DNA of 64,000 bases from Microbacterium sp. YJN-G (GTDB taxonomy: Bacteria > Actinomycetota > Actinomycetes > Actinomycetales > Microbacteriaceae), in contig NZ_CP060402.1 in NCBI RefSeq assembly GCF_015040615.1, positions 1,736,001 to 1,800,000 on the forward strand, in the 5' to 3' direction. This document shows positions 4,760 through 46,367 of the stretch, one piece after another; the first letter of the stretch is position 1; every line of letters begins with the position of its first letter. The notes under the pieces are model-generated. The model saw nothing but the letters and a program-made list of their open reading frames with translations, ran no database searches and had not been told where the DNA came from. A program made the position numbers and the translations under genes.

Positions 4760-4800
4760 TGGTGGGCCCTGCCGGGATCGAACCGACGACATCCACGGTG
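4760..4800 (-). pseudogene. 3' part of host tRNA-Val(UAC), cut by prophage
   Basis: Read on the minus strand this is tRNA positions 36-76: the 3' side of the anticodon arm (CACCGTGG), variable loop, T arm with GGTTCGATC, the acceptor strand AGGGCCC, discriminator A and an encoded CCA. Joined to 46328-46367 it gives a perfect cloverleaf with anticodon UAC (anticodon stem CCACG/CGTGG; acceptor GGGCCTT/AGGGCCC with one U-G pair). The bases just upstream here (4801 onward) are phage DNA, so no 5' half and no tRNA promoter exist on this side. Confidence 0.93.
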
Positions 4801-4802
4801 AA
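4790..4802 (+). other. attL: left prophage attachment site
   Basis: The sequence reads CATCCACGGTGAA. The right junction at 46322-46334 reads CATCAGCGGTGTA. The exact shared core is only CGGTG (4796-4800 and 46328-46332), inside an imperfect 13-base match with three differences. The core is tRNA positions 36-40 on the opposite strand. Host sequence lies to the left and phage sequence to the right. The precise crossover within the core cannot be fixed from this sequence alone. Confidence 0.85.
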
Positions 4803-4884
4803 GTCACAGCACTTCGAGCGCCCGATCGTGTCATTGGCCGACGAGCGTGAACGGCGCCTCAAGCAGACGGCGGTGACCGCATGA
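4801..4884 (+). other. separated 3' end of the phage repressor gene (27 codons)
   Basis: In the circular phage this segment would directly follow 46332. The repressor frame then continues past its last prophage codon (GTG, Val112) through KSQHFERPIVSLADERERR and ends LKQTAVTA at the TGA 4882-4884. That TGA overlaps the start of the next gene (ATGA at 4881), which supports the frame being a real coding end. In the prophage these codons have no start of their own, so the repressor lacks its 27-residue tail. The segment is charged, then ends in small residues. Confidence 0.8.
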
Positions 4885-5081
4885 ACCTCGGGAAGCAGTG
4901 CGCCTCCCGTGCGGTGATCTTCATCGACGGCGAGAAGGCCAAGGTCCGCTGCCAACACTACGTCGACTACCACCACGACCAGGCGATCGAGGATGAACTC
5001 GTGCCCCTCCCGCACTCTGTGCGGTTCGCTGACGGCGTCCGGGTGACGTGGGAGCGCGACGGCCAAATCGTCTACGTGTAG
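4881..5081 (+). CDS. small phage protein between repressor end and integrase
   Basis: A 66-residue acidic/basic mixed protein, not recognised. It starts at an ATG overlapping the stop of the viral-form repressor by 4 bases, so on the circular genome it would be translated as the second gene of a repressor-(this gene)-integrase unit. Its content (two Cys, FIDGEKAKVRCQHYVDYHHD) gives no clear fold. Position between repressor and integrase makes an integration helper or directionality factor possible, but nothing in the sequence proves that. Confidence 0.6.
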   Translation: MNLGKQCASRAVIFIDGEKAKVRCQHYVDYHHDQAIEDELVPLPHSVRFADGVRVTWERDGQIVYV

Positions 5082-5109
5082 GCAACGCACCCGCTCCGGT
5101 CAGGCACGT

Positions 5110-5130
5110 TTCCGCCGACCTTCCGCCGAC
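5110..5130 (+). repeat. tandem TTCCGCCGAC repeat upstream of integrase
   Basis: Two identical 10-base copies (5110-5119 and 5121-5130) with an 11-base period, one helical turn, in the 167-base gap between the 66-residue protein and the integrase. Spacing on one face of the helix suits protein binding, for example integrase arm sites or a regulator. The rest of the gap holds a weak GATACAAC -10-like string at 5183-5190 and the integrase ribosome site (AGGAGAG); no clear -35 was found. Confidence 0.4.
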
Positions 5131-5248
5131 AATTCTGGGGATGTCGGTCGTCGCGGCGACCCCACCGTGATCCATACCGTCGGATACAACGGCGCAGGGC
5201 CCCTCCCCTGAACGACGCGCCCATTGCATCACCAGGAGAGACACCCAC

Positions 5249-6124
5249 ATGCACGACATCAACACCGACCTGCTCGCCATGTTCGACGACTACCAGCGGG
5301 CGCAGGACCTCGCCGAGACAACCATCCGGAACCGCCGCTCCACCCTCCGCACCCTCGCCGCCGGACTCCCGGGGACGCTGCTCGACGCCGACGTGTTCTC
5401 GCTGCGCCGGTTCATGGGGCAGGAAGGTGTCACGTCGGCCACGAAACGCACCTACCGGGTCGCCCTCCGCGCGTTCTACGCCTTCCTGTGCACTGAAGGA
5501 CTGCGGGAGGACGACCCGTCGCTGAAGCTCCCGATGATCCGCGTGCCGCGCACCGAGGCCCGTCCGTTCACCCCCACCCAGGTCGACGCGATGCTCACCT
5601 CCGGCGCCTACAAGCGCACCCGGGCGATGATCCTCGTCGGCTACCGGCAGGGCTTCCGTGTCTCCCAGATCGCCCGCGTGCACGGCGACGACATCGACCG
5701 ATCCAGCATGACCATCACCACCGTCGGGAAGGGCCGGAAGGAACGCCGCCTCCCCCTGCATCCGACGATCGCCGAACTGTCGCTGACCATGCCCCTGCAC
5801 TCGTGGTGGTTCCCCGCCCGGAAGAACCCGTCCGAGCACATGCGCCCCGCATCGGTGACGGAGCTCATCACGAAGGCGAAGCTCCGCGCCGGGATCACCG
5901 ACCCCCACCTCACCCCGCACTCACTCCGCCACAGCTTCGGGACCGAACTCGTCGAGCACGGCGTCGACATCCGGATCGTGCAGGAACTGCTCACCCACGA
6001 GGACCTCTCCACCACGCAGATCTACACCCGAGTCTCCGACCGCATGAAGGCCGCCGGGATCATCGCACTTCCCGTGCGGCCGATCCCTGAGAAGTCCGGG
6101 CGCCGGCGCGCGGAGGCGGCGTAG
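5249..6124 (+). CDS. int: tyrosine-type phage integrase
   Basis: A 291-residue tyrosine recombinase that inserts the phage into, and helps excise it from, the tRNA-Val gene. Residues 1-95 form the SAM-like core-binding domain; the catalytic domain shows Arg137 (GFRVSQIA), a Lys near 161-164 (VGKGRKERRL), His224 and Arg227 (HSLRH), His250 (LLTHEDL) and Tyr259 (IYTRVS). There is no long N-terminal arm-binding domain, as in compact actinophage integrases. The C-terminus ends RRRAEAA, a small-residue tail like an ssrA-type degradation signal (inference). A good AGGAGAG site precedes ATG 5249. The phage tRNA gene follows 13 bases downstream. Confidence 0.95.
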   Translation: MHDINTDLLAMFDDYQRAQDLAETTIRNRRSTLRTLAAGLPGTLLDADVFSLRRFMGQEGVTSATKRTYRVALRAFYAFLCTEGLREDDPSLKLPMIRVPRTEARPFTPTQVDAMLTSGAYKRTRAMILVGYRQGFRVSQIARVHGDDIDRSSMTITTVGKGRKERRLPLHPTIAELSLTMPLHSWWFPARKNPSEHMRPASVTELITKAKLRAGITDPHLTPHSLRHSFGTELVEHGVDIRIVQELLTHEDLSTTQIYTRVSDRMKAAGIIALPVRPIPEKSGRRRAEAA

Positions 6125-6130
6125 TAGGCT
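6125..6130 (+). promoter_or_regulatory. TAGGCT -10 box of the phage tRNA gene
   Basis: TAGGCT begins directly after the integrase TAG stop and lies 7 bases before the first nucleotide of the tRNA, the right distance for a transcript starting at the tRNA 5' end. The same hexamer precedes aceE in this window. No convincing -35 is seen in the integrase 3' end, so the tRNA may also depend on readthrough from the integrase operon. Confidence 0.45.
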
Positions 6131-6137
6131 CGCGGGT

Positions 6138-6209
6138 GGCCGATTAGCGCAGCGGTAGCGCAATTCCTTTACACGGAAGAGGTCGCCGGTTCGATCCCGG
6201 CATCGGCCA
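6138..6209 (+). tRNA. prophage-encoded tRNA-Val(UAC)
   Basis: A 72-nucleotide gene that folds as a full cloverleaf: acceptor GGCCGAT/ATCGGCC, D stem GCGC/GCGC, anticodon stem with loop TTTACAC (anticodon UAC, reading GUA), T arm GCCGG/CCGGC with loop TTCGATC, discriminator A. The base pair at 27-43 is A-G, so the anticodon stem has four good pairs. Unlike the host gene it does not encode CCA. It has the same anticodon as the host tRNA broken by this prophage, and its arms are different in sequence, so it is not a copied piece of attB. Confidence 0.95.
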
Positions 6210-6615
6210 CTACTCCCAGTTGCTGTCGAGCATGCTCTCGTCGGCATCCCAGAGGAACAGCTCGTAATCCGATTGGATGACGCCGAGCCCCGGCTGCTTG
6301 TCGAGATACTCCCCGGTCGGCACGTACGACGAGACCATCAGCAAACCCCGGATTCAGGATCACACCGTCCGGTAGGGCTGCCGTCTCCGCCGCCACGCCC
6401 AACGGCCCGTCGTCGGCGAGCTCGCCGGGATCGTAATCAATGCACGCTGGCGGGATCTCAGCGACTGCTACCACGGGCGAGCTCGACGGTTGAGGCGCGG
6501 TGGCTGACGGTGTTGTGCTCGGCGGCGCGCTCGTCGGTGATGCCTCTGGTGCTGGCGAGCACGACGTCAATGCGAAGACTGCCAGTGTGGCCGCGACGAT
6601 GCTGATGGAACGCAT
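6210..6615 (-). pseudogene. small lipoprotein gene with a frameshift
   Basis: Starts at ATG 6615 with a lipoprotein signal peptide (lipobox LTSCS), then a Ser/Thr/Pro linker and a folded part. At the four-base C run 6346-6349 (GGGG in the sense strand) the frame breaks: the start frame continues with low-complexity Arg/Gly text into the tRNA, while the +1 frame continues as a sensible protein (LMVSSYVPTGEYLDKQPG, then YELFLWDADE, ending SNWE) and stops at TAG 6212-6210, next to the tRNA. Removing one G restores a single protein of about 134 residues. Either a mutation or a sequence error. Cell-surface cargo is a reasonable guess. Confidence 0.72.
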
Positions 6616-6650
6616 GACGCAAGGCTACCGCTCGGCCATAAGCTGTGCGG

Positions 6651-20284: not shown

Positions 20285-21199
20285 TCAGACCACCGTTCCG
20301 GTCACGTGGAAGCCCGCGAGCGGGTTCGTCACGACGGGCACATGCGGGTTGCGTGCCTGCAGACGGGTCTTGTCCGCCTTCGGCTCACGGATCGAGGTGA
20401 CCTCGACGCCGGTGTCGCCACCGACCGCGCGGTACTCGGGCGAGACGATCTGCTCGCGGGCGATGCCGCCGAGGCGACGACGGTCGACGAACAGCGGATC
20501 GGCGATGTCGCCGCCGTCGTCCGACACCCAGGTGATGCCGGCGATCGTCGGGAAAGCGCCAGTCAGTGCGGTCCGGTCGTCCTTCGGCAGGACGTCGATC
20601 AGCTCCGGCATGATCGTCGCGTACTGCTCGCCCGGCAGCACGACGGTGTCGATCGAGTAGCCGAGCTTCAGCGCACGGGCCGCTGCCTGCACGCGAAGAG
20701 CGTCCTTCAGGATCGCCTTGCCGGTCGTCCAGCCGCCTGCGGTGGCCGCGATCGTCTGCGTCACCGCCGAGTCGATGGTGCCCAGCGCGAGGTCGTTCGC
20801 GTCGAACACGAGCTCGGTCTGCAGCAGCGTGAGCGCATCATCGATGGGCTGGCGCAGGCTACGGGTGATCTCCTCGTCGGTGACCTCCGTCGCGATGCCT
20901 TCCTTCAGCGCGGTGTAGATCTCGTACTGCTCGGCGCTCAGCGGCGTCAGCTTGTACTCGGCTCCCGCGTTGGTGTGCTCCGCGCCGCGGTCGGTGCGGA
21001 TCTTCTCGTTCGTGGGAACGGCGATCGCACCTCCCTGCAGGCGGTAGCGGCCCTGCAGCAGGAACAGTCCAATGAACTGCTGAGCCTGGAGGATCTCGCC
21101 GAGGCGACGAGCCACCATCGTGGGCGACTTGATGAACGCCAGCAGGTCGGTGGCGGATGCCGTCGACAGCTGGCTCGGGGTCAGGGGGTACGTCTGCAT
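20285..21199 (-). CDS. major capsid protein (HK97 fold expected)
   Basis: A 304-residue protein starting at ATG 21199 after AGAGGGAAGC. It follows protease and decoration genes, the normal place for the major capsid protein, and has its typical order: N-terminal arm, a loop with charged residues (PTNEKIRTDRGAEHT), a long spine helix (ITRSLRQPIDDALTLLQTEL) and a Gly-rich A domain (TGAFPTIAGITWVSDDGGD). There is no long N-terminal delta domain, consistent with the scaffold being attached to the protease gene instead. Confidence 0.85.
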   Translation of the reverse strand: MQTYPLTPSQLSTASATDLLAFIKSPTMVARRLGEILQAQQFIGLFLLQGRYRLQGGAIAVPTNEKIRTDRGAEHTNAGAEYKLTPLSAEQYEIYTALKEGIATEVTDEEITRSLRQPIDDALTLLQTELVFDANDLALGTIDSAVTQTIAATAGGWTTGKAILKDALRVQAAARALKLGYSIDTVVLPGEQYATIMPELIDVLPKDDRTALTGAFPTIAGITWVSDDGGDIADPLFVDRRRLGGIAREQIVSPEYRAVGGDTGVEVTSIREPKADKTRLQARNPHVPVVTNPLAGFHVTGTVV

Positions 21200-21215
21200 G
21201 ATGCTTCCCTCTTTC

Positions 21216-21575
21216 TCAGAGCTGGAGCGCCTCGACGGTGCCACCGTCGGCCGCGGAGGTCAGGGCGAGGTACAGGGCCTCGCCGGTGGACACGGTGCGC
21301 ACGGCACCGCCGCCTGCGGCCTCGAGGCGGGTGCCGCGGGTGACGGCGCCCGAGGCGGTCAGGATGTGGATCGGCTTGCCGACCTCGACGGTGACCTTGT
21401 CGCCGATCGCCGCATCGTGGCCGGCGACGCCGACCACCTTCGCGGAGAGCGCGGCTGCAGGGGCGACCGACCGGTCCGCCGTGCCGACCTCAACGGGCTG
21501 ACCGCCGGTGATCGCCGTAGTCACGGCGAAGGTCACGGTGTCGCCAGGACGGAACAGGGGCAGGTACTGAGCCAT
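21216..21575 (-). CDS. capsid decoration protein (DUF2190)
   Basis: A 119-residue small beta protein (FRPGDTVTFAVTTAITGGQP, then VGVAGHDAAIGDKVTVEVGK) matching the DUF2190 capsid-cement family, which stabilises the shell after expansion. It sits between protease and capsid genes, its usual place, with a clear ribosome site (GGAGG region) before ATG 21575. Confidence 0.83.
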   Translation of the reverse strand: MAQYLPLFRPGDTVTFAVTTAITGGQPVEVGTADRSVAPAAALSAKVVGVAGHDAAIGDKVTVEVGKPIHILTASGAVTRGTRLEAAGGGAVRTVSTGEALYLALTSAADGGTVEALQL

Positions 21576-21577
21576 GA

Positions 21578-22858
21578 TCAGGCCTCCTTCTCGGTCGTGC
21601 CGTACACGGCGCGGTACGCGGCCTCATCAGCTGCGACCTCACCATCGGCGTGCCCGATCTCTGCGACCGGGACGGTGTTCGGTGCCATCGCGGCGAGCAC
21701 CTTGGAGGTGCCCTCCTCGTCGGCGTCGAGCAGCGCGCGGAAGCTGTCCTTGGACGCCGCGGTGATGCGGCCGTCCTTCAGCGCTGCGGTGATGATCCCG
21801 TCACGGCGGTCGCGGATCTGCTGCTCACGTGCCTGGCGGCCAGCGGCGGCATCCGCGCGCAGCTGGTCGAGAACACCGTTCTCGACGACCTGCGTGCCCT
21901 CGGGGATGGTGGCGACCGGGGCCGCCTCGGTGTCGGCCTGCTCTGCGAGCGCCTCGTCGAGAGCGGCCAGAACCGTCTCGTCGGTGGCGTCGGCGTCGGT
22001 CATGCCGAGCCGCTCGCGGATGCCAGCCTTGAAGTCGTCGTAAGCCACGACGTTCTCCTTTCGGATAGCGGACCCCGGCTCGGTCGAGACGGGGGGTTCG
22101 TGGGCGGCCGATGCCGCCATGGTGGTGGGTCGGTACGCGAAGCGGATGACTCGCGCTGCGGCCGTGTCCTCGGGCTCTTCCTCGTCAGGGACGACGACGA
22201 GCACGTCGTCCTCACCGACGGTCTCGGCCTCGCCCGCATCCGGGATGACGGCGACCCGATCTGCGAGGCCTTCGGTGACCGCGTCGGCGGCGGTCATCCA
22301 GGTCTCGTCCTCGAGCAGAGTGGCCCAGTCCTTCTCGCCGGCCTTCGTGGTGTAGATCTCCGCGAGCGACCGGTCGAGGCCTTCGAGCACGGCCGCTTCC
22401 TTGCGCATGTCCGCCGCGTTGCCCCAGACGATCGTCGAGGTGCAGTGGATCATCATCTGCGTGCCTGGCGACATCACAGTCTCGTCGGCACCGACAGCGA
22501 TCACCGAGGCCGCGGAGGCGGCCAGCCCGTCGACGACGGCGGTCACCTTCGCCCGGTGCGCGCGCAGCAGGTTCATGATCGAGATGCCCTCGAAGACGTG
22601 CCCGCCCGGCGAGTTGATGCGCAGGATGATCTGCGACACCGACTCGGGGAGCGCGTCGAGCACGCCGCCGACGTCCTTCGCCGAGATGCCCCAGAACCCG
22701 CCCCACGAGTCGATCGGCCCGTACAGTCGGATCGTCGCGATCTCGGGGTCGTCGCCGGTGGGCGGTGGGGCGACGACCGCGTCGAAGAACTCGCGCTTCG
22801 TCTTCGGTACTTCGCGGCTGCCCCAGAACCGGTTTGGCCACGTCTCCGTGCGGGTCAT
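21578..22858 (-). CDS. head maturation protease fused to scaffold
   Basis: A 426-residue protein. Residues 35-215 are a ClpP/S49-type serine protease: INSPGGHVFEG, the nucleophile region VDGLAASAAS (Ser115) and MMIHCTS (His138). After an acidic linker (EEEPEDTAAA) comes a Glu/Ala/Asp-rich helical region (270-426) typical of phage scaffold, so one gene supplies protease and scaffold. It overlaps the portal stop by 4 bases. It would direct procapsid assembly and then remove the scaffold. Confidence 0.87.
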   Translation of the reverse strand: MTRTETWPNRFWGSREVPKTKREFFDAVVAPPPTGDDPEIATIRLYGPIDSWGGFWGISAKDVGGVLDALPESVSQIILRINSPGGHVFEGISIMNLLRAHRAKVTAVVDGLAASAASVIAVGADETVMSPGTQMMIHCTSTIVWGNAADMRKEAAVLEGLDRSLAEIYTTKAGEKDWATLLEDETWMTAADAVTEGLADRVAVIPDAGEAETVGEDDVLVVVPDEEEPEDTAAARVIRFAYRPTTMAASAAHEPPVSTEPGSAIRKENVVAYDDFKAGIRERLGMTDADATDETVLAALDEALAEQADTEAAPVATIPEGTQVVENGVLDQLRADAAAGRQAREQQIRDRRDGIITAALKDGRITAASKDSFRALLDADEEGTSKVLAAMAPNTVPVAEIGHADGEVAADEAAYRAVYGTTEKEA

Positions 22859-24153
22859 GCGTCCTCCTTGGTGTCGATGCCGGCAGGCTGTCCGACCGTG
22901 CGCGCCGTGCTCTCGTCACGAGCGGGCAACCCGTACCGCGCCCGCAGATACTTCTCGAGCTCGTCGTCAGCCGTGAACGCCCCGCAGTCGATCAGCGCGC
23001 GGATGCCTTCCGCGGTGAGCGGAGCATCCTTGCCGAGCTGTGGCGGCACCAGCCGAGGGGCCGTCTCATCTGGTCCCCAGTTCATGTCGACGAGGTCCTC
23101 GACGACGTGCTGCTGGGTGACGTCCCCGAAGTGCTTCGAGATCGCGTTCAGCGCGCCGGTGAAGAAGTCGACGAACGTGTCGCCGAGCGCGTACGAACCA
23201 GTCGAGTCGTCGCCGCCGAGGGTGAGGAAGTTCGCGAGCACGGCGCGCGCGATCTGCTCATCGTGCCGACGGATCGGGGTGTTCAGGTCGGGCAGCTTCC
23301 CGTTGACGCCGACCAGTGAGAACTTCGCCCCGCTGGGGATATACACCCCGGACGCTTCGCCGGCGCGGAAGTCCTTCGCCAGCTGCAGACCTTCGGCCTG
23401 CTGATCGGCGAGCCACTGCTCCGCCTTCACCGTGTCCTTCGCAATTGCGTCGGGCAGCGGCGCACCCTCGTACACGGGGACGCCGAGCCCGTTGCGCTCT
23501 GCGACCATCGCCTCGATTCGCAGCAGCTTGTCTTTCAGAAGCCACGGCTTGTACGCCTGCCGGAGCAGGGACTGCCCGATCCAGTTGGCGCCCTCACGGT
23601 CGTTGACGAACACAACCAGACGGTCGACCGGGATCCGGACTGTGTTCTGTCCAAAGACGCCGTGCTGCTCGATCGCGATCAGCCCGCCGTCCTTCGCGAC
23701 ATCGAACTTCGAGATCGTGCGCGGCGGCCGCCACGCGAGCTTGCCGAGCCGGGCCCGGCCCTCGATGATGCGGTACACCTGCTCGAACACCGAATGCCCG
23801 AACACCAGCTCGAGCAGGGCGAGGCGCAGGAACTCATCCCACGAGAACTTCCCCCGCTCACGGCGCGGCCGTGGCGCCTGCTCCTGCCCCTTGACGGGCA
23901 GCCCGAGATCCTCAGCGATCAGCTGCACGACCTCATCCCGCGCGCCCGCAGGGTCGAGCTCCCACCGCGCCGACCGAATCGGCATCGTCACCGCACGCAT
24001 CACCGACCCGACCTGAGCGTCCTCACGGCGCATCTGGTCGTACTTCTCCAGCGACTGCGGCCACTGCAGATCCGGGTTCTTCTCGTGCGCTTCCTCGGCA
24101 AGGTCGCCCCAGCCTGGCAGGGAGCCCTTCACATACCCGATCTCATCTGCCAC
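22855..24153 (-). CDS. portal protein (DUF935-like)
   Basis: A 432-residue protein between terminase and protease. Signatures include VGSVMRAVTMPIRSARWELD near residue 50 and the clip/stem region with LLRIEAMVAERNGLGVPVYE. This is the Mu/SPP1-like portal group often labelled DUF935. It forms the dodecameric ring through which DNA enters the head. The 14-base gap to the terminase stop is normal. Confidence 0.85.
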   Translation of the reverse strand: MADEIGYVKGSLPGWGDLAEEAHEKNPDLQWPQSLEKYDQMRREDAQVGSVMRAVTMPIRSARWELDPAGARDEVVQLIAEDLGLPVKGQEQAPRPRRERGKFSWDEFLRLALLELVFGHSVFEQVYRIIEGRARLGKLAWRPPRTISKFDVAKDGGLIAIEQHGVFGQNTVRIPVDRLVVFVNDREGANWIGQSLLRQAYKPWLLKDKLLRIEAMVAERNGLGVPVYEGAPLPDAIAKDTVKAEQWLADQQAEGLQLAKDFRAGEASGVYIPSGAKFSLVGVNGKLPDLNTPIRRHDEQIARAVLANFLTLGGDDSTGSYALGDTFVDFFTGALNAISKHFGDVTQQHVVEDLVDMNWGPDETAPRLVPPQLGKDAPLTAEGIRALIDCGAFTADDELEKYLRARYGLPARDESTARTVGQPAGIDTKEDA

Positions 24154-24167
24154 GGGTGGGCCTCCTC

Positions 24168-25847
24168 TCAGAACTGCACGGATGCGACGTTCACCTCGGA
24201 CGGCGACACCGCGGTGCGCGGCACTGCGGCCGCCGGTGGCGGCTTGACCGGCTCCGGTTCGGGCTCGGGTGCGAGCACCTCGAGTGCGTAGAGCGCCAGG
24301 GTCATCGCGCAGACACCAGCGATATCCACCGGCATCGACTTCTCGCGCGACCAGCCGATGTTCTCGGCGTAGGAGCGCACGACGGCTCCCTCTATCGCCC
24401 GGTCCACGTCGGGCTGCTCGATGAGCACAATCTCGCCGTCACGCACACGGTCGCTGATCCGGCCCGTCGCCAGCGCGAACGCCGACCACTCGACCTGATG
24501 CACGATGAACTTCTCCATGCGGCCGTCGACCTCGAACTCGGCATCCAGCAGCGGCTTGATGAAGTCCATCGCCGGGACGCCCTTCGACTGCAGCGCCACC
24601 TCACGGTGCCCAGACTGCTCGGCGAGCTCGATCAGGAATGGGATCACCCACGCCCATCCGGGCCGCTTGACCCGGATCGTGACGAACGGCTTCCCGTCGT
24701 CGGTGAACACGGCCGCCGCGAGCCAGTTCCGCTGCCGGTCGTGGCTCGTGTCGATCGCCCAGACTGTGCGGGCGCCCTTCGGGATCATCGCGAGCACATC
24801 CGCCGGCGTGACATGCCTGGACTTCCACGTCGCCGTGTCGATGTAGTTGTCCACGGTCGCGGTCACCCACTGACCGAGCACCTCGATACGCTCGACATTC
24901 TTCTCCGGCGCCTCGGCCGCAGCGCGCATCAGCCCCGCGATCGTCATGCCCGGCAGATACCCGGCGGACGGGTTCGCCTGCGCGAACGCCCTCGGGTCGT
25001 CGAGCGGCGCATCCTGCTCCGCCGACCACTCCGCGACGAACCACTGCGTCTCAGGATCGTCGACTCCCGCGTGCGCGGTCTCACGCACGCCCTTCAGCAC
25101 CTTCGACCGCTTCGTGCCCGCGTTCGAGAACGCGACCAGCAGCGAGTCGTACATCGCGTTCGCCGACTTCTCGATCGACGACCAGCCCTCGTAGTCGTAC
25201 TGCTCGCGCAGCTCGTCGAGGATCAGACGAGCCGAGGATTGTCCGCGAGCACCATCGAAGGTGCGCGGCAGGTACGCGGCGCCCGCGTGGGTGCGCAGCT
25301 CCGTCTCGCCGTTCGTCGTGCGTGGCGGGTAGGTGATCTCCTGCAGATCCGGGACGCGGTCGATCGCGATGCCGACCTTCAGGTCATCAGGGGCACCCCA
25401 GCGGCGCACCTGCTTCCACGGCTTCATCGCGATATCGAGCTTCTGCGCGGCGCCGACCACGATGAAGTTCTGCTCCGGCAACTGATTCGGCCAGCGGCCC
25501 GCGTCGACGTACAGCCAGTACGCGGCGAGCACCGCGGCGATCAGCGTCTTGCCGTTCTGCCGGCCAACAATCACCAGGGCCTTACGGAACCGGAGCAACC
25601 CGAACGAGTCGAGCTCGAGCATCCGGATCAGCAGCGCACGCTGCCACGGGAACAGCACGACGTTCAGCACGTCATGCGCGAAATCGATGACCTCGAACCC
25701 GCGCGAGGTCTCCGGAGTCAGCTCGCACAGCGGCTTCGTGACGACACGAGGCTCGGTGAAGCCGTACTGCGGCACACCGTCCGTCGGCATCTCCGCGCCG
25801 ACAGCCGCCCGATAGTCCGGACCCAGGAGAGACTTCGCTCGCGCCAT
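24168..25847 (-). CDS. terminase large subunit
   Basis: A 559-residue packaging motor. Walker A-like VGRQNGKT lies at residues 94-101, Walker B RLILDE around 207-212 (Asp211, Glu212), and the C-terminal nuclease domain has VWAIDTSHDRQ with Asp366 as the first metal ligand. Length and order are typical of actinophage TerL. It pumps DNA into the procapsid and cuts the concatemer. Confidence 0.95.
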   Translation of the reverse strand: MARAKSLLGPDYRAAVGAEMPTDGVPQYGFTEPRVVTKPLCELTPETSRGFEVIDFAHDVLNVVLFPWQRALLIRMLELDSFGLLRFRKALVIVGRQNGKTLIAAVLAAYWLYVDAGRWPNQLPEQNFIVVGAAQKLDIAMKPWKQVRRWGAPDDLKVGIAIDRVPDLQEITYPPRTTNGETELRTHAGAAYLPRTFDGARGQSSARLILDELREQYDYEGWSSIEKSANAMYDSLLVAFSNAGTKRSKVLKGVRETAHAGVDDPETQWFVAEWSAEQDAPLDDPRAFAQANPSAGYLPGMTIAGLMRAAAEAPEKNVERIEVLGQWVTATVDNYIDTATWKSRHVTPADVLAMIPKGARTVWAIDTSHDRQRNWLAAAVFTDDGKPFVTIRVKRPGWAWVIPFLIELAEQSGHREVALQSKGVPAMDFIKPLLDAEFEVDGRMEKFIVHQVEWSAFALATGRISDRVRDGEIVLIEQPDVDRAIEGAVVRSYAENIGWSREKSMPVDIAGVCAMTLALYALEVLAPEPEPEPVKPPPAAAVPRTAVSPSEVNVASVQF

Positions 25848-35126: not shown

Positions 35127-35551
35127 CGTGTTCCCCTTCCGTCGGCACCGAACATCCGTTGCGCCTGCCACTTCAACCAGTCGTCGCCGTACACCGAGCA
35201 GCCCATCTCCATCGCGACCGCCGACGAGATCCGCACCCGGCGCGTCCCCTCGAGGCGGAACCATGCGAGCTCGCCCGGGTAGAACATCGGCACCCGCTCC
35301 GGAGACTTCACCCACCGGCGCACCTTCCAGCCGTGCGCGAGCGCCTCATCCTGCAGCTCCGCCTCACAGGCCGCGTTGCAGGTCGAGCACTGCGTCACCC
35401 CGTCCACGGGTGGCGGGAGGATCTTCGACCCACCCATCCCCACCGCGCGGCGGTGACCGAACTCAAGCGGCGACGTCGCCCCGCACATCACACACCGGTA
35501 GCCGTCACGCAGGTAGACGTCCTGGCGGGTCTGCTTCGTCGGGGCGCTCAT
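35123..35551 (-). CDS. HNH endonuclease
   Basis: A 142-residue protein overlapping the C5 methylase by 4 bases. HNH core: DGYRCVMCGATSPLEFGHRR, AVGMGGSK and QCSTCNAACE. The His in the FGHRR strand is the expected general base. Sits directly after a DNA methylase, a place where it could form a restriction-like pair, though many such pairs in phages are unrelated. Confidence 0.8.
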   Translation of the reverse strand: MSAPTKQTRQDVYLRDGYRCVMCGATSPLEFGHRRAVGMGGSKILPPPVDGVTQCSTCNAACEAELQDEALAHGWKVRRWVKSPERVPMFYPGELAWFRLEGTRRVRISSAVAMEMGCSVYGDDWLKWQAQRMFGADGRGTR

Positions 35552-37179
35552 GCCGCCACCGCCAGCAGGAACTCAGCGACCGCGTGCCCGAGGTCGCGCG
35601 CGGCCGGCGGCGTGACCGCGTTGCCCGCCTGCTTCACCTTGTCGCGCTTCGTGCCGAGCAGGTTGTAGTCCGGCGCGAACGCCATGCCGAGCATGATCTC
35701 GTGCGGTTCGAGCATCCGGAATCCGGCGTCGTCGACGTCGAGACTGATCGGCATCGGCGGGTCGATGAGCGACTGGTGACCGCCCGTCGTCAGCGTGCGG
35801 ATCGGCTCGGTGACCGGCGTGGACATCTCCGCGCCGCCCTCGTTGTTGCGCATGACGAGCGCGTGGTGATTGCCTTCGGCGCTGACCGTGTCGATCGGCA
35901 TGCTGGTCGGCTTCGCGACGCCGTTGTTGCGCAGCGGGACCACGAGTCCCGTCTCGTTTCGGGTCGACTGCGTGCGCATCGGGTCCGCGACGGATGCCGC
36001 CTGCTTGCCCTCACGGCCCTCCACCGGGACCAGCAGCGAGGCGTGCGTGCCACCGGCGACAATCGACGGCAGCTCACGAGTGATCGGCTCCGATCGGGAC
36101 GCGTCCGCGCCGCTCACGTTGTTCACGATCAGCGGCGGGATCGCGAGCCCGTGCTCGGCCGTTCCCGTCTGGATAGGCATCGGCTCGTCCGTCGGCGCGA
36201 TGCGGAGGTAGTTCGATCCGGTCGTCACGCCGTCGTACGTGTTCCCGGCCGCCTTCGCGATGATCGGCGCCCAGTGACGTTCGATGCCGCGGCGGATGCG
36301 CTCGCGGGTCTTCTCGGCGAGCGGCTTCTCGCGGTCGCCGATGCGCTGTGCGGGGATCGACCAGTCGATGATCGACGCGGCGGGCAGCCAGCCCGGCTCG
36401 ATCACGACGTAGCACTCCGGGCACCGGTAGAGGTACTGCGCCCGGTACCGGCCCCACTGCTCGGCCTTCTTGAACGCCTGCACCGCCTGCACCTGACCGT
36501 GCTCGGGGCAGAACGCCATCGGCCGGGTCCACTTCCCCACGTTCGGCGCAGGGTGCTGCTTCGTCGACAGGTCCGCACGCCACATCACGATGTACATGCG
36601 GTCCCGCGACTGCGGGGCCGGCAGCCCGCCGATCTGCGCGTGCATGCTGTTCAGCCACACGAACCGCAGCCGGTAGCCGAGCGACTCCATCGCCATCTGC
36701 CACGCCGGGAACTGATCCCACCGGTACGCGTCGACGACGTTCTCGAGGATGATCGCCATGTACCGGTGGTGCTCAGCGAACCGCGGGATGTCCCACATCG
36801 TCGCGCGGGACCGGTTCGCGGCCTCGTCGGGCAGCGGGCGGGTGCCATCGAGCTCGAACAACGCCTGATCCTGCATCCGCTGCCGCTTGATGCCCTTCGC
36901 GATCGAGTGGTTCGTGCACTCCGGCGACCCCCAGAGCACGTGCGTGCGCGGGAAGTACGCGGGGTTCACCTGGCTGATGTCGGCCTGTGAGTGGTCGGTG
37001 TCCGGGTGGTTCACCTGGTGCGACTTGATCGCCAGCTCCCAGTGGTTCGCCGCGATCACGACCTTGTATCCCGCCTCGACCAGGCCGCTGCTCGACCCGC
37101 CCGCACCGCAGAACAGATCGGTGACGGTGAGGCCGTTCCATTCGACCTCGGGGTGCCGATAGCCGATCCGATCAGTCAT
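35548..37179 (-). CDS. DNA cytosine-5 methyltransferase
   Basis: A 543-residue protein from ATG 37179. Motif I DLFCGAGGSSSGL (21-33), motif IV WGSPECTNHS with the presumed nucleophile Cys88 (SPEC instead of the usual PPCQ), motif VI LENV (145-148), and motif VIII QSRDR (190-194). A zinc-ribbon insert (CPEHG, then CPECY) lies near residues 225-275, and the target-recognition part and the C-terminal motifs follow. It probably protects phage DNA from host restriction. The SPEC variant is known in phage members. Confidence 0.88.
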   Translation of the reverse strand: MTDRIGYRHPEVEWNGLTVTDLFCGAGGSSSGLVEAGYKVVIAANHWELAIKSHQVNHPDTDHSQADISQVNPAYFPRTHVLWGSPECTNHSIAKGIKRQRMQDQALFELDGTRPLPDEAANRSRATMWDIPRFAEHHRYMAIILENVVDAYRWDQFPAWQMAMESLGYRLRFVWLNSMHAQIGGLPAPQSRDRMYIVMWRADLSTKQHPAPNVGKWTRPMAFCPEHGQVQAVQAFKKAEQWGRYRAQYLYRCPECYVVIEPGWLPAASIIDWSIPAQRIGDREKPLAEKTRERIRRGIERHWAPIIAKAAGNTYDGVTTGSNYLRIAPTDEPMPIQTGTAEHGLAIPPLIVNNVSGADASRSEPITRELPSIVAGGTHASLLVPVEGREGKQAASVADPMRTQSTRNETGLVVPLRNNGVAKPTSMPIDTVSAEGNHHALVMRNNEGGAEMSTPVTEPIRTLTTGGHQSLIDPPMPISLDVDDAGFRMLEPHEIMLGMAFAPDYNLLGTKRDKVKQAGNAVTPPAARDLGHAVAEFLLAVAA

Positions 37180-37309
37180 CGAGAGTCGCCTCCATCCCAC
37201 ACGCGTTGCACCTTGCGATGGCCGGGCCGTTCAGGCTGACCGCCGCGTAGGGCTCCCCGGATATCCACGTCACGTCGTCGTGCGCGCATTCGGTCTGCGA
37301 ACTGCTCAT
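37172..37309 (-). CDS. 45-residue zinc-binding protein
   Basis: Short protein from ATG 37309 (4-base overlap with the helicase-methylase stop); its end overlaps the C5 methylase start by 8 bases. Contains TECAHDDVTW and ARCNACGMEA, two Cys/His clusters that could form one zinc site. Such tiny zinc proteins precede DNA-modification genes in actinophages. Function unknown. Confidence 0.6.
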   Translation of the reverse strand: MSSSQTECAHDDVTWISGEPYAAVSLNGPAIARCNACGMEATLDD

Positions 37310-39900
37310 GCCGCGCTCCCCTCTTCGATGTCGAGCAGATCGAACAGCGACGGGGTCGACTGCTCGGCGTCAAGCTCCCGCTGATACATGACCGCGTCGC
37401 GGAACGACGTCGGGTTGAGTTCGGATGCGCGGCCGTCGCGGCCGAGCTTCCGGGCGCGCAGCGGTACCGTGCCGAGCCCGCCGAACGGGTCGAACACCAG
37501 ATCGCCCTTGTTCGAGTACCGCTCGATCAGCCGGTCGACGATGTCGAACTGCAGCGGGCAGATGTGGAACTCGAGCGCGCGGCGTGACTGTTCACCGTTG
37601 AGGGTGAGCATCCGGTTCACGTCGTCCCAGACGTCGTGCCGCCACGAGCCCGGGTCGAGGCTCTTGAACGTCGAGGGCAGCGCGTTCTTCGCGGCGAGTG
37701 CTTCGCCGGTGCGAACGTGCGCGTCGAAGTCGTACACGTTCGCGCGGGTCTGCTGCTTGAACAGTCGCGAGCGGTGCTTCGGCTCGATCGCCGCCAGTTC
37801 CTCCGGCGTCAGCAGCCGGTCGCCCGACGAGCGCCAGTCGGCGGCCGCGTCGATCTGCCAGCGCGCGAGTGAGTAGTCCGCGACGTCCTTCACGACCCGG
37901 TCGTCGGCGTACCCCTTCGACCTGTCCGTCTGCGGCTTGTGGAACAGCAGGATGTACTCCGGCGAGCCGACGCCCATCTTCGTGCCGTCCTTCCGCATCT
38001 CGGTGTAGCCGAGGCGGTAGGTCTGGTTGTTCTCCCGGACGACGTCGGTCGTGACGGTGATCATCCCCATGTAGTCGAAGCCGTGCTTCAACCCGTGCGC
38101 GAGTGCTTCGGCGTGGAACGGTGACACAGTCGGGATGCCGGCGCCGGTGACGTTGCCGAACTGGATGCGGTCCTTCACGTGGCAGGCGTAGATCCGGCCC
38201 GGCTTGAGCACGCGCAGCAGCTCGGGCGTGAGGTAGTCCATCTGCTGCCAGAAGTGCAGGTTGTCGTCGGTGTGCCCGAAGTCGTTGTAGCTCGGCGTGT
38301 ACTCGTAGTGGTTCGAGAATGGGATGCTCGTCACGATCAGGTCGACCGTGTTCGCGTCCATGTGGTCGCGCGTCTCGATCACGCAGTCGTTCAGCGCGAG
38401 AGTCCAGCCGGGCCCGGATGCCTCGACCCTCTCGACGCCCATCGCGCGAGTGAGCGCGGCGGAGATCGCGGCCGGGTTGAGGCCGAACTCGCGGATCACA
38501 TCGCTCATCGTCTCGGTGAGGCGGTCGTGCTCTTCCCACTTCGCGAGCAGGCTGTCGCGGATCTCCGACTCCGTCTCGGCGTAGATCAGATGCACCGTGC
38601 AGGGTCGGGTCTGCCCGAACCGCTGGATGCGGTGCACTGCCTGGATGGTGTCGTTGAACTTGTGCGTGACGCCGACGAAGATCGCCGTGTTCGAGCGCTG
38701 CAGGTTCATGCCCTGGCCGAGCTGCACCGGCTTGCCGACGAGCTCGGCGGTGCGGCCGTCGCGCCAGGCGTCGAGGCGTGCCTCGGCCTCGTCGTCGCTG
38801 AGCGCACCGTAGACGCTGCTGAACGGCAGGCCCTCGGCGCGGAGCGCCTTCTCGATCGCGTCCTGCTCGTCGTTCAGGTCGCACCAGATGATCACCGGGT
38901 CATCGGCGCCGTGCTCGGCGACATGCGCTCGCACGAGGCCGATTGCGTGCGCGACGCGCTCGGGCAGCGTCTCGCGCTTCTCTTTCGCGGCGGCCTGTAG
39001 CGACTTCGCGCCGGTGCGTACGAGCACGCCCTGCCCGTCGCGGTCGATCTCGTCGGAGAGGACCCCGACCTCGACCTGATGCCACTGCACGTCGAGGTCC
39101 GGCAGGTCGTACCCCTCATCGGAGTGACCGAGGTCGGACGGACGCTGCACGAAGCATGCCCACGTGTTCAGCCACAGCCAGAACTCGCGCTCCTTGTGCG
39201 GGTACAGCCGCAGGTTGCCCGCCTTCGAGCTGTCGCGCTGGAAGAACCGGGTGAGCGCCTGGCCGGTGTCCATGATGCCGAGGAACCCGGCGTAGTGGAT
39301 CAGCTCCTTGTGCCGGTTCGGCGACGGGGTGGCCGTGGCGACGAATCGGAACGGGATGCTGTCGAACAGACCGAGGAACTCTTGATACGTCTTCGAGCCG
39401 AACGAGCGCAGCACGGATGCCTCGTCGAGCGAGACGGCGTCGAAGCGGTCGACCTCGAGGCGGCCGTCGCGCACGGACTCGTAGTTCGTCACGTAGATGC
39501 CCGACCACGCCGGATCGACCTCTTCGGTGCGGCGGATGAACCGCACCTCCATGTCGAGCAGATTGCGGCCGTCACGGATGAACTCGCCGCGGACGCCGAG
39601 CGGCGCGACGATCAGCGCGCGGCCGCCGACGACCGGCGACGCCGGGTGCGCGAGGATCTGCCGCAGCGTCTCCATCTGCATGATCGACTTGCCGAGCCCG
39701 AACTTCGCGAAGATCGCACGGCGGCCGCCAGCGACCGCCCAGCGCACGATGTCCCGCTGATGCGGGAGAAGGACGGGCGCGAGGTCGCTCTCGTGCACGG
39801 GGAATCCGAAGCTACGATCGAACGCGACCTTCTCCCGCAGGAACTCGTCATGCGTGATCGCCGGCAGTTCGAGGAACGCGGGATCGGTGAGCGTGCTCAT
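37306..39900 (-). CDS. SNF2-type helicase fused to DNA methyltransferase
   Basis: An 864-residue two-part enzyme. Residues 40-460: helicase with Q-like LLPHQRDIVRW, Walker A FGLGKS (67-72), SLDEAS (157-162), ATATPSPNR (188-196) and motif VI HRIQRFGQ (423-430). Residues 495-864: an N-methyltransferase with TSIPFSNHYEY (524-534, a DPPY-like motif IV) and DPFGGLGTVPLRARKLGRD (motif I, SAM site near residue 820). The order helicase then methylase suggests a translocating modification enzyme. Overlaps both neighbours by 4 bases. Confidence 0.85.
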   Translation of the reverse strand: MSTLTDPAFLELPAITHDEFLREKVAFDRSFGFPVHESDLAPVLLPHQRDIVRWAVAGGRRAIFAKFGLGKSIMQMETLRQILAHPASPVVGGRALIVAPLGVRGEFIRDGRNLLDMEVRFIRRTEEVDPAWSGIYVTNYESVRDGRLEVDRFDAVSLDEASVLRSFGSKTYQEFLGLFDSIPFRFVATATPSPNRHKELIHYAGFLGIMDTGQALTRFFQRDSSKAGNLRLYPHKEREFWLWLNTWACFVQRPSDLGHSDEGYDLPDLDVQWHQVEVGVLSDEIDRDGQGVLVRTGAKSLQAAAKEKRETLPERVAHAIGLVRAHVAEHGADDPVIIWCDLNDEQDAIEKALRAEGLPFSSVYGALSDDEAEARLDAWRDGRTAELVGKPVQLGQGMNLQRSNTAIFVGVTHKFNDTIQAVHRIQRFGQTRPCTVHLIYAETESEIRDSLLAKWEEHDRLTETMSDVIREFGLNPAAISAALTRAMGVERVEASGPGWTLALNDCVIETRDHMDANTVDLIVTSIPFSNHYEYTPSYNDFGHTDDNLHFWQQMDYLTPELLRVLKPGRIYACHVKDRIQFGNVTGAGIPTVSPFHAEALAHGLKHGFDYMGMITVTTDVVRENNQTYRLGYTEMRKDGTKMGVGSPEYILLFHKPQTDRSKGYADDRVVKDVADYSLARWQIDAAADWRSSGDRLLTPEELAAIEPKHRSRLFKQQTRANVYDFDAHVRTGEALAAKNALPSTFKSLDPGSWRHDVWDDVNRMLTLNGEQSRRALEFHICPLQFDIVDRLIERYSNKGDLVFDPFGGLGTVPLRARKLGRDGRASELNPTSFRDAVMYQRELDAEQSTPSLFDLLDIEEGSAA

Positions 39901-44229: not shown

Positions 44230-44525
44230 CACGACACCCGGTTCCGGACCGCGTGCAGGCCAGCCTGCGACGACGGCGGGTAGTCGATCGTCTCGGGGAC
44301 CGCGGTGATCAGGTCCTCGTCGGTGAGGCGTACGTGCTGCACCGCAGGGAGGGGCACGAACGGTGCCGCCTCCACCAGCTCGAGCGCGAAGACCTGCCCG
44401 TCGATCTCGTCCGCGACCTCGGCCGCCTCGTCGAAGTCGTCGAGCAGGCGTCTCTTGCCCGCGAGCGTCGCGCGCCCATCGCGCGTCTCGACAACCAGGG
44501 CCGTAGGATTCTCAGTGATGGCCAT
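44229..44525 (-). CDS. 98-residue acidic protein
   Basis: ATG 44525 is preceded by AGAGAAAGG. Sequence: TALVVETRDGRATLAGKRRL, DEAAEVADEIDGQVFALELV, and a C-terminal acidic strand/helix mix. Not recognised. It follows a 64-base gap after the antirepressor. Confidence 0.55.
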   Translation of the reverse strand: MAITENPTALVVETRDGRATLAGKRRLLDDFDEAAEVADEIDGQVFALELVEAAPFVPLPAVQHVRLTDEDLITAVPETIDYPPSSQAGLHAVRNRVS

Positions 44526-44589
44526 TGTGGTTGGCCTTTCTCTTGGTGGGGCGTCCGGTGCAACGGGCGCCCTGCTTTCGTATGCGGGT

Positions 44590-45342
44590 TCAGAGGGTGG
44601 CCAGCTCGAGCGAACCGAGCCGGATGCGGAGACGTTCGAGCCCCCGAACGGTGACCCGCACCTGCGGCGGGTCGAGCACAAGCTCCCCGGTGCGGGGGTG
44701 GTGGTGCGACTGCGGCTTCTCCGTGAGGTGGCCGCGGGCGACGATCTCGGCGTACGCTCGCCATTTGCCGTCGCGCCCACGGAATGTCCACGCGATGTCG
44801 GCGAGCTGCTGGAACAGCCGCTGCGGACCGGTTTCGACGCCGGCGCGAGCGAGGATCTTCGCGGCATCCGCAACCGAGTAGTCGCCCTCGGCCGACGCGA
44901 GTTCGTCCCACGCCTCAGCGCGCGGAGTCAGCGCCTCGATCTGCTGGTGCGCCTCGCTGATCGCCGCGTTCGCCTCGATGACCGCACGGGCGAGCAGCTG
45001 CTCCCGCGACTCCGGCACCTGGTAGCCACCCGTGCGGCGGATGCTCGGCAGTACCTCGCTGGTGATCCAGCGACGGAACTTCAGCGCGTCGGGCTTATCT
45101 GACCGGATGGCGACCTCGTAGAGGCCGGACTCGTTCACGATCCGCGCGACCTGCGGGCGGCCGATCGCGTCGATGACCTCAGCCTGGCTTAGGGCATCCG
45201 GGTCGACGCGCGCCGCCGTGACCGACGGGTTGCTCAGTCCGAGCGCGGCGCACACGTCGGCGAGCACGAACCACGGCTCGCCGTCGACGAGCACCGTGCG
45301 CACGGCATGCCCGTCGAAGCGGAACACTTCGAGCGCGCTCAC
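44590..45342 (-). CDS. BRO/KilA-type antirepressor
   Basis: A 250-residue protein overlapping the previous gene by 4 bases. The N-terminal Bro-N domain (EPWFVLADVCAALGLSNPSV; NESGLYEVAIRSDKPDALKF; RRWITSEVLPSIRRTGGY) spans about 1-110. The C-terminal half is a KilAC-like domain (YSVADAAKILARAGVETGPQ, then FQQLADIAWTFRGRDGKWRA). Phage antirepressors of this kind switch lysogeny to lytic growth by binding or sequestering repressor. Its place in the leftward operon under P-cro fits this. Confidence 0.86.
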   Translation of the reverse strand: MSALEVFRFDGHAVRTVLVDGEPWFVLADVCAALGLSNPSVTAARVDPDALSQAEVIDAIGRPQVARIVNESGLYEVAIRSDKPDALKFRRWITSEVLPSIRRTGGYQVPESREQLLARAVIEANAAISEAHQQIEALTPRAEAWDELASAEGDYSVADAAKILARAGVETGPQRLFQQLADIAWTFRGRDGKWRAYAEIVARGHLTEKPQSHHHPRTGELVLDPPQVRVTVRGLERLRIRLGSLELATL

Positions 45343-45626
45343 GACGCATCCCCGATCTGTCGGCTCCCGGCACCGTCGAGCCGGTCAAGCCGGGACAGTG
45401 CGTTCGGGTGCGTCTCGTCGATCAGCTGCGCCCAGCGACCGCGACGGGTCTGCGCGTCGGCACCGACCTCGGGCACGTTCACGCGCTCGGTGGTCATGAC
45501 GTCACCGCCTCGCGGTCGATGACCTCCACCGCACAGCCGGGCAGCGTAGCCCGATGCGGTGGTCGGATCGTTGGTTCGGATGACGTGCTCGCCGGCGGCC
45601 GACGTTACGACGTAACGCTCGGTCAT
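45339..45626 (-). CDS. 95-residue protein between cro and antirepressor
   Basis: Start ATG 45626 overlaps the cro stop (ATGA) and its stop overlaps the antirepressor start by 4 bases. Sequence has a short N-terminal strand/helix (ERYVVTSAAGEHVIRTNDPT) and a basic middle. Not recognised. Its place in the immunity operon could suit an excision or early regulator, but this is inference. Confidence 0.52.
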   Translation of the reverse strand: MTERYVVTSAAGEHVIRTNDPTTASGYAARLCGGGHRPRGGDVMTTERVNVPEVGADAQTRRGRWAQLIDETHPNALSRLDRLDGAGSRQIGDAS

Positions 45627-45862
45627 GATGCGGCCGCCAGCGTCTCGATCTCCGCGAAGCTGATCGACACGCGCATCCCGCATGCCGTCGCGATTGCGTC
45701 GAGGTCGGCGAGAGTGAGCGGCGTATCACCGGACAGCCGTCGCCCCACGGCAGACTGAGACATGCCGACCTTGGCGGCCAGCTTCTCCTGAGACATCCCG
45801 GCTTCGCGGGCGCTGAACCGCAGGACGCTGGTTACCCGCTGGATGGGTAGATCGGTGAACAT
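45623..45862 (-). CDS. Cro-like helix-turn-helix regulator
   Basis: A 79-residue protein with an XRE helix-turn-helix at about residues 23-45 (MSQEKLAAKVGMSQSAVGRR). It is divergent from the repressor gene, the place of Cro. ATG 45862 is chosen: a GTG at 45880 is in frame but would lie upstream of the -10 box (45870-45875), so the likely transcript starts at or next to ATG 45862 and is leaderless. Operator O1 lies inside its first codons. Confidence 0.78.
   Translation of the reverse strand: MFTDLPIQRVTSVLRFSAREAGMSQEKLAAKVGMSQSAVGRRLSGDTPLTLADLDAIATACGMRVSISFAEIETLAAAS
45831..45840 (+). promoter_or_regulatory. operator O1 (GTTACCCGCT)
   Basis: First of three copies of a TTACCCGCT motif in the immunity region, here inside the start of the cro gene. 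The copy at 45883-45892 is in inverted orientation. Expected binding site for the repressor and/or Cro; proposed from the repeat, not from binding data. Confidence 0.6.
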
Positions 45863-45869
45863 GACCACC

Positions 45870-45897
45870 ACTGTACCCACGGAGCGGGTAACTGCAA
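45870..45897 (-). promoter_or_regulatory. P-cro: leftward lytic promoter
   Basis: On the minus strand: TTGCAG (45897-45892), a 16-base spacer, and TACAGT (45875-45870). It would start transcription near the ATG 45862, giving a leaderless cro mRNA. Operator O2 (45883-45892) lies in the spacer and touches the -35, so repressor binding there would shut it. Confidence 0.68.
45883..45892 (-). promoter_or_regulatory. operator O2 (AGCGGGTAAC on plus strand)
   Basis: Reverse complement of O1 (GTTACCCGCT), exact over 10 bases. It sits between the -35 and -10 of P-cro, the position of a strong repressor site. Confidence 0.68.
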
Positions 45898-45942
45898 GTC
45901 TTGATCAAGCGCCCGGCGTGTCGCTCACCCGGTTTGCGCACC

Positions 45943-45953
45943 GTTTACCCGCT
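45943..45953 (+). promoter_or_regulatory. operator O3 (GTTTACCCGCT)
   Basis: Third copy of the motif, with one extra T. It ends 6 bases before the -35 of P-rep, so a protein here could activate or repress the repressor gene. O2 and O3 face each other as an inverted pair around the divergent promoters. Confidence 0.6.
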
Positions 45954-45959
45954 CAGTGC

Positions 45960-45988
45960 TTGACGCACCCGGGATTAGCGGATAGATT
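45960..45988 (+). promoter_or_regulatory. P-rep: repressor promoter
   Basis: TTGACG (45960-45965), 17-base spacer, TAGATT (45983-45988). The repressor ATG begins 8 bases after the -10, so the mRNA is leaderless or nearly so. On the circular phage the same promoter would also read across attP into the 66-residue gene, integrase and tRNA; in the prophage that link is cut. Confidence 0.76.
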
Positions 45989-45996
45989 TCTGTGTC

Positions 45997-46335
45997 ATGA
46001 GCACAACAGCCATTGCAGAAGACCCCATGGACGACCGACTCCGCGTCGCCAGCGCGGTCCGCGCACACTTCGGGGCGGCGGGACTCAGCGCCTCCGCCGT
46101 CGCGCGTGAGATTGGCATCACACAGTCGAAGATGAGCCGACGCACCACCGGTGCCGAGCCCTTCGACATCGACGAGCTCAGTGCGATCGCGCGCGTGCTC
46201 CACGTCGAGCTCGTCGACTTGATCACGGGGACGAACCTCCCGGCGCGACCGCTCCGTGTCGGGGCCGGCGCAGGGGCTCGACGCCACCTGTACCTGGTGG
46301 ATGGCGATCCTGAAGCGCCTGCATCAGCGGTGTAA
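45997..46335 (+). CDS. phage repressor, prophage (truncated) form
   Basis: A 112-residue helix-turn-helix protein (about 31-52: SASAVAREIGITQSKMSRRT) encoded at the right end of the prophage, divergent from cro. Its TAA stop (46333-46335) is host DNA: it lies in the broken tRNA gene. In the circular phage the frame would pass attP and continue 27 codons to 4884 (139 residues). This is the arrangement of integration-dependent immunity in phages BPs, Brujita and Giles, where the long form is unstable and the integrated short form is active. The C-terminal 30 residues are flexible (Gly/Ala/Arg, then acidic). Confidence 0.83.
   Translation: MSTTAIAEDPMDDRLRVASAVRAHFGAAGLSASAVAREIGITQSKMSRRTTGAEPFDIDELSAIARVLHVELVDLITGTNLPARPLRVGAGAGARRHLYLVDGDPEAPASAV
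46322..46334 (+). other. attR: right prophage attachment site
   Basis: Reads CATCAGCGGTGTA; pairs with CATCCACGGTGAA at 4790-4802. The shared core is CGGTG (46328-46332). The phage-derived part is the end of the repressor gene (codons for Ala-Ser-Ala-Val); host tRNA sequence starts at the core. The predicted attP (core flanked by phage on both sides) is inside the repressor frame. Confidence 0.85.
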
Positions 46336-46367
46336 ACGTGGCGCTCTACCAGCTGAGCTAAAGGCCC
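46328..46367 (-). pseudogene. 5' part of host tRNA-Val(UAC), cut by prophage
   Basis: On the minus strand, tRNA positions 1-40: acceptor GGGCCTT, D arm (GCTCAGCTGGTAGAGC), anticodon stem CCACG and the loop TTTACAC with anticodon UAC, then CG. Beyond this the sequence is phage (CTGATGCAGG...): it cannot pair as an anticodon stem (two mismatches of five) and contains no T arm, so no functional tRNA can be made here. The promoter -10 of the gene remains upstream. Confidence 0.93.

Follow-up and report, generated by a model that had tools for sequence, protein, structure and literature searches.

What becomes of a transfer RNA (tRNA) gene that a prophage splits without rebuilding, and of the phage gene on the other side of the same crossover? 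The question arises in a 64,000-nucleotide (nt) stretch of the Microbacterium sp. YJN-G genome (assembly GCF_015040615.1, contig NZ_CP060402.1, positions 1,736,001 to 1,800,000; hereafter the window), in which a siphophage-like prophage of 41.5 kb sits between the two halves of the minus-strand host tRNA-Val(UAC) gene (Table 1). CGGTG, 5 base pairs (bp), is the sole sequence common to both halves, and ARAGORN calls no tRNA at either prophage junction, neither end being repaired by phage DNA. The bacterial attachment site (attB) overlaps the host tRNA, the core is short and, by ARAGORN and core comparison, the tRNA is left unrebuilt. Joining the flanks in silico gives a 95-nt attB. Of 58 further genomes in the genus, 52 hold an essentially whole tRNA that matches it (at ≥94% identity in 48 and 86-89% in 4) and 6 have no such match; other prophages may have rebuilt some of these 52 tRNAs, as in genome G300 (G and L numbers are our own handles).

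The prophage carries a tRNA-Val of its own with the same UAC anticodon (TAC in the DNA), beginning 13 nt past the integrase stop codon. In the genome of this strain (3.62 Mb in 2 contigs, listed as 100% complete) there are 46 tRNA-family matches; ARAGORN run around all of them found one UAC tRNA, that of the prophage, together with one Val(GAC) and one Val(CAC), and a separate UAC pattern search returned the same single place. Neither method found a second host tRNA-Val(UAC) in this genome. The pattern was matched in 261 of 299 genomes of the family, mostly once per genome and in some twice. GUA codons are in real use, at 153 of 94,920 codons in 20 sampled 20-kb stretches, with at least one in 69 of 219 open reading frames (ORFs). 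Under standard wobble rules GUA is not decoded by the GAC and CAC tRNAs, and a cell without the UAC tRNA would be expected to die. The phage tRNA shares more positions with host Val(CAC) (60/73 identical) and Val(GAC) (59/72) than with the tRNA it replaces (54/73), and was therefore not simply copied from attB. A TANNNT hexamer lies at -13 to -17 upstream of 13 of 16 replacement tRNAs and may be their -10 box.

Most of this had been anticipated. The initial annotation described a tRNA-Val(UAC) split 41.5 kb apart and left uncompleted, a phage tRNA with the same anticodon beside the integrase and an isoacceptor needed for GUA, and proposed checking that attB is an intact tRNA in relatives; the break, the replacement and the lack of a second copy all stand. 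Such a trade is not new, having been published as tRNA-dependent lysogeny (PMC10865867; papers are cited here by PubMed Central (PMC) accession, from excerpts of their text). Its notion of addiction to the prophage is plausible, and precise excision would restore attB. Absent from it were the repressor gene crossing the phage attachment site (attP) and the recurrence of the arrangement at tRNA-Arg(UCU) and tRNA-Lys(UUU).

When the phage ends are joined as attP, the repressor frame of the window prophage stays open for 27 codons beyond the crossover. In the prophage, the frame instead runs into the right junction (attR), where the host anticodon loop supplies its TAA stop codon. attP lies inside the repressor gene, and the frame is uninterrupted in two viral records, L131 and L136, the repressor sequence of the latter being that of Microbacterium phage Min1. 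At the Val crossover GTG|AAG becomes GTG|TAA; at Arg and Lys it is a tyrosine codon that the crossover turns into TAG or TAA. Judged by motif only, 9 of 17 viral repressor tails that we read have AA within their last three residues, and the C-terminal AEAA of the window integrase is an ssrA-like tag. We infer that the viral tail destabilises the repressor, and the AA ends of the integrases may do likewise for the integrase. The closest phage integrases are those of Brujita and its relatives (38% identity); invariant residues that we take to be of catalytic type are unchanged across nine relatives.

Two published forms of lysogeny meet in this arrangement. In tRNA-dependent lysogeny (Guerrero-Bustamante and Hatfull 2024, PMC10865867), a short core leaves the tRNA broken and the phage carries a tRNA of the same isotype, deletion of which gives clear plaques. 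In integration-dependent immunity (PMC9262239), attP lies inside the repressor gene, the viral repressor carries a degradation tag and truncation activates it; according to that review, the core has to include the 3' end of the tRNA as well, rebuilding the tRNA. We think it likely that the window element joins the two through one recombination event. A Brujita-related tyrosine integrase would recombine attP with attB in the anticodon arm of tRNA-Val(UAC) through the 5-bp core, and the repressor would exchange its 27-codon viral tail for the TAA of the host anticodon loop. The shortened repressor would, on the analogy of integration-dependent immunity, become stable and active. The same recombination would destroy the tRNA gene, because the phage DNA replacing its 3' half encodes repressor, not tRNA. 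The phage tRNA-Val(UAC), whose promoter probably lies where the integrase gene ends, would cover the loss, and would also relieve the repressor tail of encoding half a tRNA. Published experiments exist for each half of this mechanism (PMC10865867, PMC9262239).

Integrase relatives were collected from 299 family genomes, 366 genus genomes (26 at E ≤ 1e-30, the strain's own included), viral contigs (9 and 7 loci) and genome contigs (2 loci). Nine integrases aligned together were too diverse to serve as a query, and two closer integrase sets were searched instead; a single-protein scan of the genome contigs with the integrase returned no relative. Elements with both junctions, or an uninterrupted attP, readable were classed into two states, replace (14) and restore (16). 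The replace elements comprise, at Val, the window and G480; at Lys(UUU), G052, G512 and G510; and at Arg(UCU), G205, G271, G014, G387, G383, the second element of G433 and Leucobacter chromiisoli L120, together with the viral records L131 and L136 (also Arg), whose host site is unseen and whose isoacceptor match rests on the core. Restore elements were found at Val (G367, G483, G300, G496, G486, G511, G628, the first element of G433, G516, G238 and G155), at Thr (G096 and G133) and on contigs L126, L133 and L135.

A matching tRNA stands beside the integrase in 14/14 elements that do not rebuild the host tRNA, compared with 0/16 of those that do, where no tRNA was called beside the integrase (Fisher's exact test, 14/0 versus 0/16, 6.9e-9, kinship ignored). 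attP falls within the repressor in all 14 replace elements, across three isoacceptors (Val, Arg and Lys). In the 12 that are integrated, the host tRNA is left broken, with no such tRNA called at attR, and in all 12 joined elements the repressor stops in the host anticodon loop and continues for 19-27 further codons in attP. The paired prophage ends of G512 and L120 lie on different contigs, and the core of G271 is 15 bp. A pattern search of 11 replace-type genomes found no other intact copy of the isoacceptor, a search that an unusually built tRNA would escape.

In restorers, the repressor tail is the tRNA 3' half in antisense. The Val restorers end their repressor in VGPAGIEPTTSTV or a near variant, which is the antisense tRNA 3' half, and the Thr restorers in PESNWRPIHYE or RESNSRPLHYE; in L126, L133 and L135 the antisense tRNA falls inside the repressor frame. 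All 30 ORFs (14 replace, 16 restore) match phage transcriptional-repressor families. Whole-genome pattern searches gave exactly one UAC tRNA in nine Val restorers and one each in G238 and G155; L126, L133 and L135 are fragments, with a tRNA elsewhere in those genomes possible.

The two states also change on the integrase tree. A tree of 30 integrases (16 labelled replace, including G339 and L119) needs at least 3 state changes, 2 of them forced by well-supported branches, and a tree of 29 rows (Thr elements added; L136, G339 and L119 removed) needs 4, with 3 forced. The second tree carries long-branch warnings for both Thr rows; L136 was dropped from it for a match length that is not a multiple of three and gives a false long branch in one frame. 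The window and G480 are placed among the Val restorers, which suggests a switch of state at the same tRNA-Val site, in a direction that we infer below.

About 40 rows, with a junction unseen or unread, stayed unclassed. G339 and L119 are replace-like with attR unseen and lie outside the 14-versus-16 count, as do G120, G189, G295, G191, G066, G227, G060, G286, G090, G282, G062, G202, G633 (from which no repressor frame was obtained), G407, G404, G459, G319, G509, G409, G374, G476, G553, L121-L125, L127-L129, L132, loci L068-L076 and further matches from the family-genome integrase search. L130 and L134 were omitted as copies of the G205 and G271 elements. The open frame of G476 into an intact tRNA has 397 codons and looks like a host gene. 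L125 has, by eye, a degenerate Val(UAC)-like sequence just after the integrase, where ARAGORN and Rfam call none. We abandoned the idea that replacement tRNAs are built to avoid being attB, since the anticodon stems, compared by eye, differ in Val but hardly in G014.

Several elements are of interest in their own right. G433 holds both states, rebuilding tRNA-Val(UAC) in one element and replacing tRNA-Arg(UCU) in the other. Three tandem tRNA-Arg 3' halves lie upstream of the G271 integrase (L094 5092-5298), as if entry had been repeated. The integrase lies about 15-16 kb from the rebuilt tRNA-Val in L169, L171, L172, L174, L175 and L178 (G367, G300, G496, G486, G511 and G628) and 35-39 kb from it in G238, G433 and G483; the six shorter elements could be phage satellites using integration-dependent immunity. 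At L274 (G090), an integrase relative adjoins a tRNA-Thr(CGT) that breaks off past its anticodon loop, an intact copy lies on another contig and no tRNA was seen beside the integrase, making G090 a possible exception to the replace/restore pattern.

The best surviving competitor is plain tRNA-dependent lysogeny, in which the repressor stop at the junction is coincidental and immunity is independent of integration. The tRNA part alone would suffice for what the initial annotation had seen (PMC10865867), and the viral end of the window repressor, AVTA, has no clear ssrA-like degradation tag (by motif only). However, the repressor arrangement recurs in every one of the replace elements, at three isoacceptors and with repressor-family matches throughout, and tail length is confined to the same narrow range in the 12 joined elements; we regard coincidence as improbable. 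A second explanation gives the phage tRNA a role in lytic translation or against tRNA-cutting defences, as proposed for phage tRNAs generally (PMC10865867), and has it match the site by chance. The match to the broken isoacceptor and the position at the integrase in 14/14 elements, with none there in 16/16 rebuilders, make such a chance very unlikely, yet this contrast is still compatible with an added role. That the 3' half of the tRNA was once present in attP and disappeared following integration, or that the prophage ends are assembly errors, is barely credible and was already disfavoured: the core is only 5 bp and prophages are old sequence in assemblies, but paired junctions of the same design occur in 12 elements, two of them across contigs (G512 and L120), and viral records L131 and L136/Min1 have an uninterrupted attP without a tRNA half.

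Besides the AVTA end, which is not a clear tag, three observations weigh against a joint switch of immunity and tRNA. Open antisense frames run through tRNAs also where there is no prophage repressor (G476, L271 and L273), and an open frame alone therefore proves little. GUA is rare, at 0.16% of sampled codons. Kinship leaves only 3 independent pairs on supported branches of the trees, too few for a sign test to reach significance (p = 0.25).

The interior genes of the prophage match those of a siphophage. Family matches include terminase, portal, head protease, major head protein, tape measure, minor tail, endolysin and antirepressor, and positions 35548-39900 encode a C5 DNA methylase and a protein with helicase and N6/N4 methylase domains.

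Table 1 Features of the prophage and its junctions, in window positions (attL and attR, left and right prophage junctions; aa, amino acids; HTH, helix-turn-helix).
Feature	Position	Strand	Evidence
Host tRNA-Val(UAC) 3' half, 41 nt, attL side	4760..4800	-	ARAGORN: no tRNA there
Common core CGGTG, left copy	4796..4800	.	comparison of joined ends
Viral repressor 3' end, 27 codons + stop, severed from the repressor in the prophage	4801..4884	+	joined-ends frame
Tyrosine integrase, 291 aa, C-terminus AEAA	5249..6124	+	Pfam, PHROGs
TAGGCT, candidate -10 box of the phage tRNA, directly past the integrase stop codon	6125..6130	+	TANNNT pattern
Phage tRNA-Val(UAC), replacement	6138..6210	+	ARAGORN; Rfam in genome search; fold
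Major head protein, head protease, portal and terminase large subunit genes	20285..25847	-	PHROGs
Antirepressor	44590..45342	-	Pfam Bro-N and ANT; PHROGs
Phage repressor, prophage form (stop TAA at 46333-46335)	45997..46335	+	PHROGs repressor families, Pfam HTH
Common core CGGTG, right copy	46328..46332	.	comparison of joined ends
Host tRNA-Val(UAC) 5' half, 40 nt, attR side	46328..46367	-	ARAGORN: no tRNA there

How the replace state arose admits a more tentative reading, to which we give slightly less than an even chance. With attP cutting both a repressor and an essential tRNA, the spare tRNA would be a recurrent release from the antisense tail, and may outlive its prophage, as perhaps did the tRNA-Lys(UUU) of this strain. 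That gene, L044 (G000:C1:2465603-2465674; L240 8604-8675), is the only tRNA-Lys(UUU) found in the genome; it is one of the 46 tRNA matches, was missed by ARAGORN and has UUU in its anticodon loop by eye. It is identical at 68/72 positions to the tRNA-Lys with which the G510 prophage replaces the host gene, and occupies, in the opposite orientation, the locus of the ordinary tRNA-Lys(UUU) in G480 and G339. An ORF beside it has a weak endonuclease VII match (E 2e-4), and no integrase relative was found at the locus. L044 is a possible fossil of a lost tRNA-dependent prophage.

If the element works as proposed, two unusual lysogeny switches that the literature keeps separate are joined in one, and an integration-dependent immunity core that lies in a tRNA gene can do without rebuilding it. 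The restorers and replacers at the same tRNA, in close relatives, offer a natural comparison between rebuilding and replacing. Should the tRNA act as it does in phage Fionnbharth, the prophage could be lost only through exact excision or with the phage tRNA retained, which would be a simple route for a bacterium to come to depend on a viral gene.

The nearest comparisons divide along the same two lines. Tyrosine integrase, short core in a tRNA, unrebuilt gene and same-isotype phage tRNA are all features that the window shares with tRNA-dependent lysogeny (PMC10865867). The isotypes named in the available text of that paper are Lys-TTT, Ile2-CAT and Leu-CAA; tRNA-Val and tRNA-Arg, the isotypes of the window and its relatives, and Microbacterium do not occur in it. 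Its authors ascribe arm-type domains to the integrases and set integration-dependent immunity apart as another system. The tRNA trade itself is thus already published, the Val and Arg isotypes are new, and the coupling to a repressor switch is apparently unreported. The only paper in the open-licence PMC literature found to use both terms was PMC10865867, which contrasts them; absence there is no proof.

With the phages of integration-dependent immunity (Broussard et al. 2013, via PMC9262239; Brujita, BPs and Charlie) the window shares an attP in the repressor, a stop at the host junction and a related integrase with an AA end. Their core of about 35 bp rebuilds the tRNA, whereas the 5-bp core of the window does not, and because of this unrebuilt tRNA we regard the window element as a variant and not a standard member of that group. 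The annotated repressors of Brujita and YungMoney hold, by eye, a stretch resembling antisense tRNA. Integration-dependent immunity is also reported at non-tRNA sites, in M. abscessus (PMC8092301). In the same species, the tandem prophages prophiT36-2a/2b (PMC9934374) are the nearest published combination, pairing integration-dependent immunity with a phage tRNA-Thr that is suggested to make up for an impaired host tRNA. Unlike in the window, their 40-bp core rebuilds the tRNA, with two acceptor mismatches, and the phage tRNA belongs to the second prophage, at a distance of about 2 kb from attR, and does not adjoin the integrase of the broken gene.

The combined layout also stands in cultured phages. 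The annotated c1 repressor of Min1 contains an in-frame core and ends in AAKAAG, and a tRNA-Arg(TCT) follows its integrase. In Arthrobacter phages Cole, Ryan and Elesar (L298, L299 and L300) a tRNA-Arg(TCT) follows the integrase at 42-48 nt, encoded on the opposite strand, and the repressor, which ends in RKAA or RKVA, contains an in-frame GAT-TAC; in Cole and Ryan a further integrase gene lies close by. For the related phage QuinnAvery (2026, PMC13097055), both lysogens, on Arthrobacter globiformis B-2979, and the tRNA are reported, with no link drawn between them in the available text. Cole, Ryan and Elesar differ from the window in the strand of the tRNA and in a greater distance between repressor and integrase, and all four phages, Min1 included, have Arg in place of Val. 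The four share with it a related integrase, an adjoining tRNA, here tRNA-Arg(TCT), and a core, here GAT-TAC, in frame within the repressor.

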